Source of the DNA: a virus
Virus record (IMG/VR): IMGVR_UViG_3300032323_000882
Location: 1-25,705 of that record
Strand: one strand, 5' to 3'
Length of the DNA stretch: 25,705 bases
The stretch's first letter is position 1. Each line of letters begins with the position of its first letter. Below are positions 3,266-20,717 of the stretch, one piece after another. The notes under the pieces are model-generated. The model had not been told where the DNA came from and did no database searches. It saw nothing but the letters and a program-made list of their open reading frames with translations. The translations under genes were made by a program, and so were the position numbers.

Positions 3266-3907
3266 ATGGCAAAAGCACAATACCCGATTGACGGGAAAAA
3301 GGGTAAGGCTTGGAAGATTACAAGTCCCTTTGGATGGAGAATACATCCCATTGAAAAAATTAAGAAGCATCATAACGGCGATGACATTTGGGGATCAAAC
3401 CCAAAGATCTGGATTGAAGCATGGCACGACGGAACTGTTGTATATGCAGGCCCATCAAAGCTAAAAAAGCCTGATGGTTCTCTAGGTGGCATTGGATACT
3501 ACGTAGACATTCGCTCAAAGATTAATGGCAAGTGGTATGTCACTCGTTCTGGCCACATGGAAGAGGGCAGCTTAAAGGTTAAGACTGGTCAGAAGGTTGA
3601 GGCTGGGATGCCTCTAGGAATTATGGGCAACACAGGAGCCTCAGCAGGACGCCATCTACATTTTGAAATTGTAGAGGGTAGGACTCATAGATGGGATCTA
3701 AATGGTAAAGGCTTTGTAAGTCCAATTGCTTTTGTTGAAGCTATTATGGCTTGGGAAAAGCTTAAGGCGTCTGCCAAAGATATTACCCCAGACGATGGGG
3801 TTCCAAGCGAAGCCATGCCAAGTCTTGATGTAGCTCATCTTGCAGCAAAGAAAAAGCCAGGATCTAAAAAGAAATTAGTAAATCCAGTTCCTGGTTTTAA
3901 TAAATAG
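3266..3907 (+). CDS. M23 family peptidoglycan hydrolase (endolysin-like), 213 aa
   Basis: The lysostaphin-type zinc peptidase signature is complete: H36-x3-D40 (HNGDD), H97 in SGHM, and HLH at residues 130-132 followed by FE. M23 enzymes cut peptide cross-bridges in peptidoglycan. The region after residue about 170 is a low-complexity tail with AAKKKPGSKKK that could bind the anionic cell wall. No signal peptide or membrane segment is seen, so release would need a holin. It begins MAKAQYPIDGK, nearly identical to the start of the next gene, so the two are duplicates. Endolysin or virion-associated use cannot be separated. Confidence 0.88.
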   Translation: MAKAQYPIDGKKGKAWKITSPFGWRIHPIEKIKKHHNGDDIWGSNPKIWIEAWHDGTVVYAGPSKLKKPDGSLGGIGYYVDIRSKINGKWYVTRSGHMEEGSLKVKTGQKVEAGMPLGIMGNTGASAGRHLHFEIVEGRTHRWDLNGKGFVSPIAFVEAIMAWEKLKASAKDITPDDGVPSEAMPSLDVAHLAAKKKPGSKKKLVNPVPGFNK

Positions 3908-3923
3908 TTTATTTTAAAGGTGT

Positions 3924-3965
3924 CCCCTGCGTAGAATATTTTTCTTCGTGGGGGCATTTTTATTC
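3924..3965 (+). terminator. Rho-independent terminator after first M23 gene
   Basis: CCCCTGCG (3924-3931) pairs with CGTGGGGG (3947-3954) including two G-U pairs, around a 15-nt loop, and is followed by CATTTTTATT. This is a strong intrinsic terminator. Confidence 0.8.
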
Positions 3966-4046: not shown

Positions 4047-4769
4047 ATGGCTAAAGCACAGCTGCCTATTGACGGCAAACTAGGGAAGAACTTTAAGATT
4101 ACTTCCCCTATGGGTAATCGTATACACCCAGTAACAAAAGAGAAAAAACATCACAATGGCTCAGATGTATGGGCTGGTGCAGAACCTTGTTGGATTGAAG
4201 CACCATACGATGGCAAGGTACTAGAAGCAAAGAAGTCAACTGCTCCAGGTGGTGGCTTTGGCAATTATGTTAAGTTGCTTCACAATATTAACGGCAAAGC
4301 GTACACAACCTTATACGCACACATGGCTGATGGACTAAAGGTAAAAGCTGGACAGAAGATTGAGGCAGGAACTATTCTTGGGAAGATGGCCTCTACTGGA
4401 ATGTCTACAGGAAAGCACCTCCACTGGGAGTTAAAAGAGGGAAAGGACCACGCATGGAACAACACAGGCAAAGGTTATATCGAACCATTTAGATTCTTCA
4501 ACGCACTGATTGCGGTGGAAGCTGCAGCGGCAACTGCAAGTGTAGAGACACCAGAAAGTGATCCAGTTCTGCCAGCACCAGTTCATGGAGCAAAACCAGT
4601 AGTTGTAAAACCATCTACCTCGAAAGCAAAAACTTACACCGTAGTTTCTGGGGATAACCTAACAAAAATTGCTAAGGCTAACGGAACAACTGTTGCAGTC
4701 TTGGTAAAGCTAAACGGAATCAAAGATGCAAACAAAATTAATGTTGGACAGGTAATTAAACTACCTTAA
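4047..4769 (+). CDS. M23 peptidase with C-terminal LysM domain (endolysin), 240 aa
   Basis: The M23 zinc site is H36-x3-D40 (HNGSD), H92 in YAHM and HLH at residues 124-126. A Pro/Ala/Val linker (about 150-192) leads to a LysM peptidoglycan-binding domain at residues about 194-240 ([14 protein letters not shown], then VLVKLNGI and [10 protein letters not shown]). The catalytic half is a clear paralogue of the preceding gene; the LysM domain replaces its Lys-rich tail. This is the best endolysin candidate in the window. The gene has its own promoter. Confidence 0.92.
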
Positions 4770-4775
4770 GATTGC

Positions 4776-4804
4776 TTGACACTAGCCATGTGTAGTGGTA
4801 TACT
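4776..4804 (+). promoter_or_regulatory. Sigma-70-like promoter with -10 at hairpin loop
   Basis: TTGACA (4776-4781), a 17-bp spacer and TATACT (4799-4804) drive the operon starting with the zinc-ribbon gene. As at 1588, the left arm of a long inverted repeat fills the spacer. Confidence 0.8.
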
Positions 4805-4840
4805 ATATCTTATAATATGCCACTCACATGGTTTTGTCTT
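4786..4840 (+). terminator. Terminator-like hairpin embedded in the promoter
   Basis: CCATGTG (4786-4792) pairs with CACATGG (4825-4831) and AGTGG (4794-4798) with CCACT (4820-4824); TATA/TATG extends the stem to 16 pairs with one bulged T and a 13-nt loop. TTTTGTCTT follows. It would stop transcripts arriving from the endolysin gene while allowing new initiation from the internal promoter. Confidence 0.65.
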
Positions 4841-9308: not shown

Positions 9309-9336
9309 CCAGGGCTACGGCCCTGGTTTTTCTTTT
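9309..9336 (+). terminator. Bidirectional intrinsic terminator between convergent genes
   Basis: CCAGGGC-TACG-GCCCTGG is a perfect 7-bp stem with a tetraloop followed by TTTTTCTTTT. On the minus strand the stem is followed by TCATCTTTT, so it can also end the glycosyltransferase transcript, whose stop codon lies inside the T-run at 9335-9337. Confidence 0.9.
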
Positions 9337-11245
9337 AAACAAATGTTTGAGCCTTATAGTTAATATAAATATTGTTATATCCCTTTGCCCTAAAGTTTTG
9401 ACAAAGCACAACCATTTCACAATCAAACTCTTTTGTCACGGTATTGATCCATCCATGACGCACACCTTCTTGGAATGGTTTTGCACGGTATAGCACCAGT
9501 CCATTAGACGTAGAGTAATACTCTCCATAATGCTTTCTACTGTACTCAGGATCTAACTCAGAAGCCTCTGGCTTATAGACAGGGCCAGTTCTTGTAGCCC
9601 ACCAATCATAATGAGTTCCATTCTTTCTAATAGATACCGCAGAAACTATGTCAAAGTTAGGCTTAATATCTTTAAAGTTTAACAGCTCTTTAACAGAAGC
9701 CATGTTGAATGACAAGTCTCCCTCTACCATAAGCACATAGTCTACTTTGCTTAAGAATCCTCCAGCCTCTATGGCTTTATTCCTGGCCTTGGATAGGTTC
9801 TCAACACGCACAGGATCCTTCACAGAGCCATAGAAATCTGTTTGTATGTTCTCAGTTACCACAGAAACGCCATTAAGGAATGACCAGTCCGTTGTATGAA
9901 GCTTTGACTTGGTATTATCAGACGAGTCATTCTCATATACGGATAGGTAAAACTCATACTCAGGAAAGGCCTTCACTATCTTTTTAATCTGATTACAATA
10001 CTGGTCAAACTTGGGTTCTATGTTTCTTACAATTGAGTAGAGCAAAACCTTTTCTTTTTTAGAATCTTTTATTTCTTTTTTACTTACAATGTTTTTAGCT
10101 AATACAGAGTCAACAAAAGATAAATAGTCTTTTTTAATTTTTTCCCAGTCATATGATTTAGCAGCTTCAAACCCATTATTAGATAGTTGACCATAGAGTT
10201 TTACATCTGATAAAGACTTGATAGCGTCTACGGACTCAGTAATTGTTTCAGCAACAATCATAGAATCTTTAATTTCTTTTTCTGAAAAACCTCTTGCACC
10301 CATTGTTGAAGTTATAATTGGTATTCCATAGCTTAAAGCTTTCATCATTTTTAAATGAGTTCCAGATCCAGAATCCATTGGATTAATAAAAGCAAGAGAG
10401 TTACTAAAAAAAGAATCTAGCATTGCGTCATTAACAGTACCAGTAACAGTCATATTTTCTGGAATCTTTTTCTTGTCAACTCCATTACCAGCACTACCAA
10501 TAATAATAAAATTATATTTTGGCATAAGCTTTGCAATATCAATAATCTTATTTGCAGCTACAACATTAGGCGGATGTCCACTCCCAACAAAAATAATATC
10601 TTTTGATTGCAATCTTTTTTTAGTGTTTATTCTATCTCTTACTATAGTTCCATTTGGAATATAAGCATTGTCTTCTGGCACAGCTTTATAATACTTTTTA
10701 GTTTCATCAAAGTCTTTTTTAGAACAGTACGTCATGGCATTAGATCCTTCAACTGCGATCCTTTCCATTCTTTCTACTATTCCATTTACAAACTCATCGT
10801 TTGGATGAAGCTGATTTGCCATAGTGATTTCAGAGTTATGAGAGTTGTATATAATTGGAACTGTTCCAACAATGTCTTCTATGAATGGGGCTGCTGAAAA
10901 ATGATCAAGGATTACCAAGTCTGCCTGTGATGACAATAGCTGTACTTGTTTGTTAAAGCTTTTTAAATATCTTTTATAAATGTACTTTGTTATATCGTGA
11001 TTAGCTTTTGCATCACTGCCTATTCTCAACCTGTGTTTTTGGATGACGGCATTTTCAATACCTGGCTTAATAAACTTTATATTATTTGTTATTTTTTTAA
11101 CTTCTGATGACTGGTCCCATGCAAAGCATAAAAACGTAACGTTATGACCCACCAGGGCTTCTGCTAGGGTAGCTGTTCTTTCTACCCCACCACTATTCTT
11201 ATCCCAGTTTTTTAAATTGCTACTTACAATTAAAATATTAGCCAT
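9335..11245 (-). CDS. Two-domain glycosyltransferase (GT4-like plus GT-A/CMT1-like), 636 aa
   Basis: Residues 1 to about 375 are a GT-B glycosyltransferase: an N-terminal Rossmann strand (ANILIVSSNLK) with SGGVERTATLAEAL, a second domain starting near DIIFVGSGHPPNV, and DSGSGTHLKMMKALSYGIPI at the donor site. From about residue 395 a second enzyme begins (VLLYSIVRNIEPKFDQYC), with VYENDSSDNT and MVEGDLSF as the likely nucleotide- and metal-binding motifs of a GT-A fold like the CMT1/CAP59 mannosyltransferases. Two transferases on one chain suggest sequential sugar additions to one acceptor. The target (host surface glycan, virion protein or DNA) is unknown. CAGGGAC may serve as ribosome site. 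Confidence 0.82.
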   Translation of the reverse strand: MANILIVSSNLKNWDKNSGGVERTATLAEALVGHNVTFLCFAWDQSSEVKKITNNIKFIKPGIENAVIQKHRLRIGSDAKANHDITKYIYKRYLKSFNKQVQLLSSQADLVILDHFSAAPFIEDIVGTVPIIYNSHNSEITMANQLHPNDEFVNGIVERMERIAVEGSNAMTYCSKKDFDETKKYYKAVPEDNAYIPNGTIVRDRINTKKRLQSKDIIFVGSGHPPNVVAANKIIDIAKLMPKYNFIIIGSAGNGVDKKKIPENMTVTGTVNDAMLDSFFSNSLAFINPMDSGSGTHLKMMKALSYGIPIITSTMGARGFSEKEIKDSMIVAETITESVDAIKSLSDVKLYGQLSNNGFEAAKSYDWEKIKKDYLSFVDSVLAKNIVSKKEIKDSKKEKVLLYSIVRNIEPKFDQYCNQIKKIVKAFPEYEFYLSVYENDSSDNTKSKLHTTDWSFLNGVSVVTENIQTDFYGSVKDPVRVENLSKARNKAIEAGGFLSKVDYVLMVEGDLSFNMASVKELLNFKDIKPNFDIVSAVSIRKNGTHYDWWATRTGPVYKPEASELDPEYSRKHYGEYYSTSNGLVLYRAKPFQEGVRHGWINTVTKEFDCEMVVLCQNFRAKGYNNIYINYKAQTFV

Positions 11246-13299: not shown

Positions 13300-13373
13300 T
13301 GGGCTGGATGGGACTTGAACCCATGACCAACGGATTATGAGTCCGTAGCTCTAACCAGCTGAGCTACCAGCCC
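13300..13373 (-). tRNA. tRNA with CAT anticodon (elongator Met or Ile2)
   Basis: Acceptor GGGCTGG pairs with CCAGCCC, the D arm has GCTC...GAGC, the anticodon arm is CGGAC-TCATAAT-CCG type with anticodon CAT, and the T arm has ATGGG-TTCAAGT-CCCAT. Discriminator A. Sequence alone does not tell Met from lysidine-modified Ile2; absence of initiator features (three G-C pairs in the anticodon stem) excludes initiator Met. CCA is not encoded. Confidence 0.9.
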
Positions 13374-18126: not shown

Positions 18127-18756
18127 TCAGGATAGGTACTCAATAGCTTTATGGAAAGTAGCAATGTCTTCTTTAAAGAAACCTATTCCAGTATTGCATC
18201 CACTACACAACAAACCCCTAACCCTACCTGTCACATGGTCATGGTCTATATGAAGGGTTTTATGGCTTGGGTTGTTACAGATAGCACATAGGTTATTTTG
18301 ACTCAAAATCATGGCGTTGTACTGTTCTTCGTTTAGTCCATATCGCCTAAGTCTATGGTTAGCCAATTGCATCTTCTTAACCTTGGCCTGATTATTTTTA
18401 TGGTATATGCTGGTTCTAGCAATATCACATGGTTTACACTTAGAGTGGAGATATTTTTTATTTATAACATCTGGTTCTTGTTTTGCCTTGTGGGTTTCAT
18501 AAAAGTCTTCAAAGGGTTTGGCAACTTTACAGGCAGTGCACAGCTTAGTTGTTGGGGTTTCGTTTGCTATGTAGTTAAGCTTCTCAACTGCTGCCAATAC
18601 TTTTTGAGTAGTCTCTGGGATCACCTTGTCAGGATGGTTAAAGACATTGTAGACTGTTCCAGAAGTAACTCCAGCCTCTCTTGCAACTAAGGCATTGGAT
18701 CCTCTTGTTCCATCAGCAGCCCTAAACCATGTCCTTTGTTTCCATTCTTTTCCCAT
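18127..18756 (-). CDS. LacI-type HTH fused to endonuclease VII-like HNH nuclease, 209 aa
   Basis: Residues about 18-66 are a LacI-family DNA-binding domain (ALVAREAGVTSGTVYNVFNH, then TQKVLAAVEKLNYIAN). Residues 72-112 hold CTACKVAKPFEDFY and CKPCD, a zinc module often attached to phage HNH enzymes. Residues 130-205 match recombination endonuclease VII: YGLNEEQYNAMILSQ, CAICN, LHIDHDHVTGRVRGLLCSGCN. It is probably a free-standing homing endonuclease whose HTH helps choose the site. It stands alone beside the origin region and has its own leaderless promoter. Confidence 0.85.
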   Translation of the reverse strand: MGKEWKQRTWFRAADGTRGSNALVAREAGVTSGTVYNVFNHPDKVIPETTQKVLAAVEKLNYIANETPTTKLCTACKVAKPFEDFYETHKAKQEPDVINKKYLHSKCKPCDIARTSIYHKNNQAKVKKMQLANHRLRRYGLNEEQYNAMILSQNNLCAICNNPSHKTLHIDHDHVTGRVRGLLCSGCNTGIGFFKEDIATFHKAIEYLS

Positions 18757-18762
18757 CCTTAC

Positions 18763-18791
18763 ATTATCTCAAAAAATCGAGGGTATGTCAA
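18763..18791 (-). promoter_or_regulatory. Leaderless promoter of the LacI-HTH nuclease
   Basis: Minus-strand TTGACA (18786-18791), 17 bp, GATAAT (18763-18768), 6 bp, ATG at 18756. AAGG directly before the ATG is inside the predicted start region. Confidence 0.75.
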
Positions 18792-18934
18792 GGAAGCATC
18801 GTAATCCCTAGTATAAGATATAACCCCTAGTACCAAACCATTGTTTTTGGGATAGCCAGATAGCCCCAATATCCCCATATCTCCCATAGCCAAATCATCT
18901 TGATACCCCCGAAAATATGGTTTGATAGATAAAG

Positions 18935-18987
18935 TTATACACAGGGTTTGATGGTTTTACACAGAGTTATCCACATAGTTATGCACA
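18935..18987 (+). repeat. Cluster of four DnaA-box-like sites
   Basis: TTATACACA (18935-18943), TTTTACACA (18955-18963), TTATCCACA (18967-18975) and TTATGCACA (18979-18987) all fit or nearly fit TTWTNCACA, in one orientation. The last three are spaced 12 bp apart. Confidence 0.75.
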
Positions 18988-19202
18988 TATAGATCTTACT
19001 GATTTATTTTAGATTTGTCCTAGAAGTGGATGAAAGTGGATGGATATGGATAATGGAACACTTTTAAATAGGGGCTCGTAATCATTTTAGCACACAAACC
19101 CTCCTATGTCAATAGTGGAAACCTAAATTCTTATACCAAACCACATTTTCTAGGTATTCTACAAACCACCAAACCACCATATTGGGCATATAAAAACATA
19201 GA

Positions 19203-19260
19203 AAAACTATATGGTTTTTGGATCAAACCACATACAAATTAAACAAAACTATATGGTTTT
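19203..19260 (+). repeat. Direct repeat of a 16-mer in AT-rich DNA
   Basis: AAAACTATATGGTTTT occurs at 19203-19218 and 19245-19260, 42 bp apart (about four helical turns). The unit is itself nearly palindromic, and a CAAACCA iteron lies between the copies. Strand opening at this AT-rich site is plausible. Confidence 0.65.
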
Positions 19261-19320
19261 ATATCAAAAGATGATGGTTTGTTATTGTGTATTATACTAG
19301 GGGTAAAGTTGTCTCTTCGT

Positions 19321-19371
19321 AATACCCTGGCCCTTAGGGCCGCAGCTTCGCTGCCAATTTCCAGGGGTATT
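19321..19371. other. Three-arm hairpin (cruciform-like) structure
   Basis: AATACCCTGG (19321-19330) can pair with CCAGGGGTATT (19361-19371), enclosing two perfect hairpins: GGCCC-TTA-GGGCC (19329-19341) and GCAGC-TTC-GCTGC (19342-19354). It is GC-rich inside an AT-rich region. No T-run follows, so it is unlikely to be a terminator. Confidence 0.6.
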
Positions 19372-19657
19372 TAGAAGCTGATCGTAATACCAAACCACCT
19401 AGTAGTATATACAAACCATATAGCTGATACCAAACCACTCTAAAAGGTTCAGGGATTTTGGACAAAGCCTTCTTAATGTCTTATTGGGGATATGTTTACT
19501 ATAATGGTTTGGGATTTGATGGTTTGGATATGATGGTTTGATACCCTCAAAACTTTCAGCGATTTTTTGCAGAGGGTTCTTAATAACTTTCTGGGGTTTT
19601 CCTATTGACTTTCTTAATAGAGTATGGTAAAATGCGAATGTGGTCGGGCACAGAAGA

Positions 19658-19695: not shown

Positions 19696-19971
19696 CTACT
19701 TGTCTGCCTGACCTAAGACATCATCAATAGTCTCAAACCCTGTATCCTCAATACCCAAACCAGCCAATAGCAAATCAAAGGTTTCCTCAATAAACCTCTG
19801 TGCCATCTCTGTTGATTTGACTATGTCATTGGCAATAGCATAAGCAAGTGGTAAGCCTAAGTCATTGTATTCTGTGAAGTCTTGGAAGTCCTCATCACTA
19901 CGATAGTTGAGCCATAGTTCTGCTAGGATTCCACATTGATTAGAATAGTGGGTTGTGGCTGTGTCTGACAT
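19696..19971 (-). CDS. Hypothetical acidic protein, 91 aa
   Basis: The sequence NQCGILAELWLNYRSDEDFQ, FTEYNDLGLPLAYAIANDIV and TFDLLLAGLGI is helical and acidic and looks like a widespread actinophage family with no known function. GAGAAGGAGAACG precedes the ATG. It overlaps the upstream gene by 32 bp and is the last gene before the origin-like region. Confidence 0.75.
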   Translation of the reverse strand: MSDTATTHYSNQCGILAELWLNYRSDEDFQDFTEYNDLGLPLAYAIANDIVKSTEMAQRFIEETFDLLLAGLGIEDTGFETIDDVLGQADK

Positions 19972-20158
19972 TTTCGTTCTCCTTCTCGAACTCTGCTACT
20001 TCTACTATCTCTATGATTCTGTTGTATGAAACTCTTGGTGCTACCCTCGCCAAATACCTGCCTACTTCTTCTAGGTTTAGGTTGTAGTCATTTACTATGT
20101 CTGATAGTTTTATGGCTACCTTTTCCTCTTTGGTGATTGGTAATCGTCTGCTTCTCAT
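19940..20158 (-). CDS. Small putative DNA-binding protein, 72 aa
   Basis: A basic start (MRSRRLPITKEEKVAIKLSD) precedes a helical region (IVNDYNLNLEEVGRYLARVA, then SYNRIIEIVEVAEFEKE) that could form a helix-turn-helix, although no family is certain. AAAGAGGATAC lies before the ATG. Its position next to the candidate origin makes an origin- or promoter-binding role worth considering. Confidence 0.6.
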   Translation of the reverse strand: MRSRRLPITKEEKVAIKLSDIVNDYNLNLEEVGRYLARVAPRVSYNRIIEIVEVAEFEKENENVRHSHNPLF

Positions 20159-20185: not shown

Positions 20186-20214
20186 ATTGTATCAAAAGTT
20201 AGGGGAAAGCACAA
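20186..20214 (-). promoter_or_regulatory. Promoter for the 72-aa gene
   Basis: Minus-strand TTGTGC (20209-20214), 17 bp, TACAAT (20186-20191). The -35 lies in the right side of a strong hairpin. The sequence just after the -10 (AGGAATCTATAACTAA) resembles that after the next promoter upstream. Confidence 0.55.
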
Positions 20215-20328
20215 GCAAGAAAGGTATAACAACCTGTGCCTTCCCCTGTTGTGAAGCAGGCAACCCCTTACCTCTTCACGTGTTGGTAGGGAGTATTCTC
20301 TACCCACCAAATCTAGCTATAGGGTTCC
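20201..20328 (-). ncRNA. Candidate structured small RNA
   Basis: Between the promoter at 20335-20363 and the next gene there is no usable ORF but three strong hairpins in the predicted transcript. Hairpin 1 is at 20285-20308. Hairpin 2 at 20251-20279 has about 12 pairs (GTGAAG...CTTCAC plus AGGTAA...TTGCCT) with a GGGG loop. Hairpin 3 at 20201-20247 has a 13-bp stem (AGGGGAA..GCACA type) with one mismatch, followed by AACTTTTG. No tRNA T-loop or known riboswitch is recognised. It might instead be a long structured leader of the following gene. Confidence 0.5.
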
Positions 20329-20366: not shown

Positions 20367-20717
20367 TCAAAATAGAACTTCCTCCTTGTACTTAGGAAGA
20401 CATTCGAAGATGTACTTCAGCCTGTCTGATATTGAGTCCCACTTCTCAAATACAAATCCCTCTAGGCCATACCATAGGTCAGGCTCATGGTTTTGAAAGT
20501 ATGGGTCATTCTCGATCAATGCCGTCGCCTCTTCAGCTGTTAACTCAATAGGCTCACCAAGCTCTTCAGTTGTCTGTCCAGTGTACTCATAGATGTGGAT
20601 ATACCAGGGGCCCATGTGCTCCCACTCACCATCTCCATTGAGTAACTCACGCTTAAAGATGTTTAGGTCGTATACGTATGGCGTCAGGTCCTTAGCTTTG
20701 TTTCTACTCTCCAACAT
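20367..20717 (-). CDS. Hypothetical acidic protein, 116 aa
   Basis: Acidic and aromatic-rich (DGEWEHMGPWYIHIYEYTG, ELTAEEATALIENDPYF, DLWYGLEGFVFEKWDSISD). No family is recognised. It overlaps the upstream gene by 14 bp, so both are co-translated. Confidence 0.65.
   Translation of the reverse strand: MLESRNKAKDLTPYVYDLNIFKRELLNGDGEWEHMGPWYIHIYEYTGQTTEELGEPIELTAEEATALIENDPYFQNHEPDLWYGLEGFVFEKWDSISDRLKYIFECLPKYKEEVLF

Follow-up and report, generated by a model that had tools for sequence, protein, structure and literature searches.

What is encoded in the gap between two small genes of this phage contig, and is it an RNA in its own right? The window, that is the whole 25,705-nucleotide stretch of virus DNA analysed here (IMG/VR record IMGVR_UViG_3300032323_000882), carries on its minus strand a gene for a 116-aa protein of the YDLNIF family (20367-20717) and a gene for a 72-aa protein (19940-20158), and the segment between them was read in a preliminary description as a promoter-driven, ORF-free RNA with three strong hairpins. 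On the minus strand, the segment from 20310 to 20201 indeed folds into three hairpins, H1 (20310-20283), H2 (20279-20251) and H3 (20247-20201), with a minimum free energy of -54.2 kcal/mol in RNAfold, compared to a mean of -37.4 (sd 3.8) for 200 dinucleotide shuffles, none of which was as low (z -4.42); the plus strand folds more weakly (z -2.64). H1 consists of an 8-bp lower stem, a 2-nt bulge (TA, 20302-20301), a GAG/CTC upper stem and a 4-nt loop, and its core resembles an arginine sandwich. H2 has the consensus TNAGGGGTNG and presents a GGGG tetraloop (20267-20264) on an A-U closing pair. H3 is terminator-like, with a 15-nt loop containing CCTTTCTT, and is followed by AACTTTTG as first described, but its stem measures 16 bp in the computed fold and not 13 bp. 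It is absent from our list of terminator-like sites; its loop exceeds the length permitted by that scan. The upstream promoter, for which no strand had been named, lies on the minus strand (TTGACA-17-TACAAT, 20363-20335, 11/12 matches) with a predicted transcription start near 20328, and the second promoter that had been placed inside the third stem (TTGTGC-17-TACAAT, 20214-20186, minus strand) does begin there, its -35 box lying within the 3' arm of H3. Sites resembling promoters are not rare in themselves, with 11 in 4.5 kb and 13.2 expected.

Relatives were collected by searching IMG/VR with the flanking 116-aa and 72-aa proteins, and DNA patterns derived from the hairpins added more. The covariance search that had been proposed as a check was run with two models, R1 (built on 25 sequences) and R2 (built on 49), with cut-offs for a full element of at least 55 and at least 72 bits, respectively. 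This gave 61 coordinates and, once identical sequences were removed and extra hits on the same contigs left out, 60 distinct elements, that of the window included. All are from IMG/VR contigs, and at the level of whole records 22/31 have an R2 match of at least 72 bits, the record of L050 having two. The L050 genome contributes two elements (3834-3946 and 4692-4814), the second of which lacks both promoter overlap and U-run. Four pattern hits without a covariance-model match (L114, L119, L125 and L134) were dropped, and a pattern hit in a bacterial MAG (L105), which reached 16 bits and has a different fold, was taken as chance. A putative second copy in the window (18769-18879), with 14.9 bits and an E of 0.24 with R1, was absent with R2 and was rejected. 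A scan of genome contigs with the alignment of the 116-aa protein revealed no cellular relatives, blastn searches with three elements against annotated phages returned short chance matches only, neither the 72-aa protein nor the L005 relative of the 116-aa protein had a match among annotated phages, and R1 detected no element in two Streptomyces phages. Within the relatives found here, the family is confined to phage contigs.

The stems covary far beyond chance. In an alignment of 49 sequences (A7), which was fitted to the covariance model and is hence biased towards it, 35/40 pairs vary on both sides, 90.5% of cells are paired compared to 66.5% in shuffles, and 472 cells show both-side changes compared to 143 in shuffles, while sliding the partners by 1-3 columns lowers pairing from 90.5% to 43-49%. 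Alignment A5 agrees, with both-side changes in 37/40 pairs. We regard the existence of a conserved RNA family as close to certain. The segment had been called ORF-free, and no conserved ORF is apparent in the family, since the lengths of complete ORFs within the 60 elements are scattered, from 0 to at most 36 codons.

Which parts of the RNA are held constant? Across the 49 sequences, the lower stem of H1 covaries and drifts freely, whereas its core is nearly invariant: a G-C pair below a 2-nt bulge with U in first place, followed by G-C, A-U and G-C above, the four pairs being kept in 49, 48, 48 and 48 of the 49 sequences, respectively. The full core pattern, with U, C or A as the second bulge base, fits 58/60 elements, and otherwise the only occurrences of the H1 hairpin in 2.36 million strand-bases of partly overlapping DNA were two truncated copies of the element. 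In an arginine sandwich, as described in PMC6189040, a pyrimidine of the bulge forms the cap, held in a triple with the stem, and the Watson-Crick pair below the bulge forms the base; in 7SK, the U40U41 bulge forms the cap with A43-U66, and replacing the pair below by G-C gives a preformed sandwich (PMC6189040). As far as secondary structure goes, H1 has the same arrangement in these 58 elements, sharing with the TAR and 7SK features described there the pyrimidine bulge, the Watson-Crick pair below and G-C then A-U above. It differs in that the second bulge base is an A in the window, and no homology is claimed. In H2, 11/12 helix pairs covary in A7 and the loop exposes AGGGGU: the GGGG loop is present in 49/50 parsed elements, being missing in copy 1 of L050 (the computed loop of L034 is one base off), the closing pair is A-U and the next pair is A-U, U-A, G-C or G-U. 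In H3, 16/17 helix pairs covary in A7, the stem ranges from 13-21 bp across relatives, and CUUUC lies in or at the loop in 40/50 parsed elements and is absent in 10/50. A kissing loop between H2 and H3 (AAGG/CCUU, UAGG/CCUA) showed apparent covariation at first and was rejected as a conserved contact: L089, L093 and L106 pair the AAGG type with CCUA, and 10/50 elements have no such loop.

The position of the element relative to genes is equally regular. In 45/60 cases the element begins at -13 to +18 nt from the stop codon of an upstream ORF of at least 60 codons, which indicates that it is normally a 3'-UTR element; in the other 15/60 the stop lies inside the element. The upstream ORF is usually the YDLNIF gene; a small ORF starting MAVFPKA or VAVFPKA takes its place in L006, L050 copy 2 and L116. 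Transcription from a promoter of its own, as had been suggested for the window, does not hold as a general rule: a promoter with at least 10 matches lies within 70 nt upstream only in the window, L003, L032 and L004 (shuffled rate 0.008 per element), and 56/60 elements lack one. The TTGACA-17-TACAAT promoter is the same in all four and stands directly before the RNA in each, including the relocated copy of L004, where the element lies downstream of the 72-aa gene and the gene itself keeps a promoter without the hairpins. With a strong promoter directly upstream and no intervening ORF, a free, discrete RNA is plausible in these four phages. In L006, a similarly placed promoter serves the small ORF located ahead of the RNA, whereas in the window, L003 and L032 it adjoins the RNA itself, as if the small ORF had been lost and the RNA retained.

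At its other end, the element borders the next gene, and H3 appears to have a boundary role of its own. An intrinsic terminator consists of a G+C-rich stem followed by a U-run; the stem is present in 60/60 elements, and TTTT follows within 12 nt in 36/60. The H3 arm holds the -35 box of the next promoter, with a spacer of 17, in 55/60. Five elements (L050 copy 2, L063, L112, L113 and L115) have neither promoter nor U-run at H3, yet H1-H2-H3 is intact, which suggests that H3 is kept as RNA. Conversely, at ten distinct loci of the 72-aa gene (L036-L041, L053, L054, L055 and L060) an H3-like hairpin occurs without H1 and H2; L044, which did not fit the H1 pattern either, duplicates the L002 element and is not among them. 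The H1-H2 module is therefore dispensable in some lineages, and, given these ten loci and the five elements above, it looks like an addition to a boundary hairpin. The 72-aa protein, the usual downstream neighbour, belongs to no recognised family; three helices are predicted (pLDDT 85), and a fold search found no solved relative (best E 7.8). The gene for this protein is found near both ends of one 124540-base contig (L041 and L042), which would fit a location of the region within direct terminal repeats.

A search for AGGGGT hairpins elsewhere in these phages led to a second RNA, which lies 3.8 kb upstream in the record of L003; examples are L139 1496-1530, L141 1496-1530 and others among L137-L156. 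It is an H-type pseudoknot, GUCC-UGGCCA-UGAC with a downstream UGGCC, located after stop codons. The pattern, with up to 3 mismatches, matches 19/31 records and none with the reversed control; in the 19 sequences 98.2% of cells pair, 5/9 pairs vary on both sides and both stems contain compensatory changes. No Rfam family matched it, and a search of the window did not find it. At the 19 places examined, with L150 doubtful, one or both of two hairpins come before it, one with AGGGG and the other with a UUCCUUUCU-type loop; as modules they are similar to H2 and H3. The recurrence of an AGGGG hairpin and a UUCCUUUCU loop in a second 3'-UTR RNA argues for trans partners that the two RNAs share.

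How might the three-hairpin RNA act? Our preferred reading, to which we give somewhat less than an even chance, is that it is a regulatory RNA carried in 3'-UTRs and most likely read by trans factors. Four observations favour this: unpaired motifs are kept while the stems around them drift, H3 persists where terminator and promoter signals are missing, the RNA can have a promoter immediately in front of it, and the second RNA of the same phages has similar loops. We propose that a phage transcription unit bears the RNA at its 3' end, with H3 as the probable transcript end, a strong hairpin usually followed by a short U-run and with a 3' arm that mostly doubles as the next -35 box. H1 and H2 would form a recognition module, in which H1 offers the arginine-sandwich bulge, most likely to an arginine-rich protein, and H2 offers AGGGGU, most likely to a second partner to which H3 would often present a pyrimidine loop with CUUUC. 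The upstream mRNA would carry it as a tail in most phages, while the promoter adjoining it in the window and in three relatives could give rise to a free transcript of about 130 nt. The fold, its covariation, the constant unpaired motifs, the position and the promoter overlap are computed results; transcription, an end at H3, binding by trans factors and a regulatory effect are inferences. Against this reading stand the ten loci without H1 and H2, the 10/50 elements without a CUUUC loop and the failure to find a partner in the window, where no ORF of at least 30 codons has 5 arginines in 14 residues; the window is part of a genome.

The tight link to gene-block boundaries suits a role in cis equally well. 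Lambda nut comprises a boxA sequence and a boxB hairpin, and the put RNA of phage HK022 binds RNA polymerase and suppresses termination. As the main rival, H1 and H2 may similarly be a signal on the nascent RNA, like HK022 put, lambda nut or HIV TAR, and may set whether transcription stops at H3 or reads through, with either an arginine-rich protein or RNA polymerase itself binding them; we consider this possible, if rather doubtful. H1 and H2 always lie just upstream of a terminator-like hairpin and usually right behind a stop codon, and the H1 core fits the arginine sandwich described for TAR and 7SK (PMC6189040). HK022 put is described as a strongly structured phage RNA in which two stem-loops make up about 70 nt, with putL just downstream of an early promoter (PMC9378689), and the element here shares with that description the strong structure and the stem-loops near promoters. 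This likeness is one of description and not of alignment, and H1 and H2 stand directly behind a promoter in 4/60 elements only. Moreover, put comprises two hairpins of about 70 nt in a lambdoid phage, whereas here there are three in about 120, and the terminator-like hairpin follows at once, mostly with a promoter inside. Because the next gene has that promoter of its own in 55/60, read-through would hardly be needed; H1-H2-H3 also persists in the 5/60 elements that lack U-run and promoter, and a search of the window found no candidate antiterminator protein.

A plainer view would be that the element only marks a boundary, H3 ending one transcript and hosting the next promoter while H1 and H2 shield the mRNA 3' end from exonucleases. 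This agrees with its position at the ends of gene blocks, with the constant spacing of the promoter overlap and with the ten loci that keep H3 alone, but shielding requires stability and not a particular sequence, and the H1 core and the AGGGGU loop are near-invariant while the stems drift. In addition, the adjoining promoter in four elements indicates that the RNA can arise without an mRNA to shield. We therefore consider a mere boundary element unlikely.

A bolder form of the trans reading, which we offer as a speculation with little probability, is that the RNA acts on the host translation machinery, AGGGGU mimicking a Shine-Dalgarno sequence, the H3 loop (UUUCCUACUUUCU, UACCUUUCUU) mimicking the 3' tail of 16S rRNA and H1 recruiting an arginine-rich protein. 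The similar loops of the pseudoknotted RNA would then mean that the phages run several 3'-UTR RNAs as a small network, with the 30S subunit or Shine-Dalgarno sites as its target. The 24 distinct H3 loops match what we take to be the 16S tail better than permuted tails in all but 2/1000 trials and better than their own shuffles in 1000/1000, a result that is only suggestive because the loops share a common descent.

The preliminary description had invited a role in replication control from a nearby origin, and an origin-like region is indeed close. The 9-mer that we take to be the DnaA box occurs as an exact match 175 times in the collected loci, compared to a mean of 13.4 for 50 permuted 9-mers (13 times), both figures being inflated alike by partial overlap of the loci. 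A box lies 900-1600 nt downstream in 32/54 elements with enough sequence, and none was found in the 2.5 kb upstream of any of the 60; the box of the window (18967-18975) falls in a noncoding stretch (18757-19400). Boxes are also present in 10/11 checked loci without H1 and H2, which links them by synteny to the region and not to the RNA, and the RNA does not overlap them. Antisense RNAs of the ColE1 RNA I type are read from the strand opposite to that of a primer or leader RNA; an antisense partner was not identified here, the nearest plus-strand promoter-like site that points at the RNA is at 19605-19633, and the promoter scan found none on that strand between 19633 and 21303. A role in replication does not follow from this setting, and we regard it as very improbable.

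The preferred reading, a 3'-UTR-borne RNA with trans partners, invites comparison with known RNAs. Bacterial small RNAs derived from 3'-UTRs lie at the 3' end of an mRNA and end in a terminator-like hairpin. Judged from sequence alone, the element resembles them in both respects, the stop codon placing it at an mRNA 3' end in 45/60, and differs in its fixed three-hairpin architecture, in the promoter nested in the last hairpin and in its occurrence in phage contigs only. A 2010 survey describes phage-associated RNA motifs, for example manA, wcaG and c4, found by comparison in phage and metagenome DNA (PMC2864571). The element is likewise a conserved structured RNA of such DNA, and it is set apart from the survey motifs by way of Rfam 15, a comparison that extends to those contained in Rfam. 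In Rfam 15, only tRNAs reach the gathering threshold in the window, a permissive search (E up to 5) gave no credible match, the best sub-threshold matches in L007 being below 19 bits, and seven loci with relatives had no match. Literature searches found no report of the three-hairpin RNA. The element thus adds a well-supported RNA family, without an Rfam 15 match, to a group of uncultured phages, and the arginine-sandwich-like hairpin and the exposed AGGGGU loop, conserved across diverged phages, provide handles on it. Should a partner protein be found, the family would be a phage case of TAR-like recognition; should the RNA prove to be a free small RNA, it would show how a 3'-UTR element comes to stand directly behind its own promoter.

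The host may be an actinobacterium, as suggested by the DUF932 protein of the window, which is closest to proteins of Streptomyces phages (about 52-56% identity), two of these phages, those in which R1 detected no element, being Stanwilliamsviridae. Besides the RNA, the window contains five tRNA genes (2265-2678 and 13300-13373), a gene (9335-11245) for a protein of 636 aa that has glycosyltransferase domains and a match to a CAP59-type mannosyltransferase, and a gene (18127-18756) in whose product a LacI-type helix-turn-helix (residues 24-65) is combined with a recombination endonuclease VII domain (134-208).
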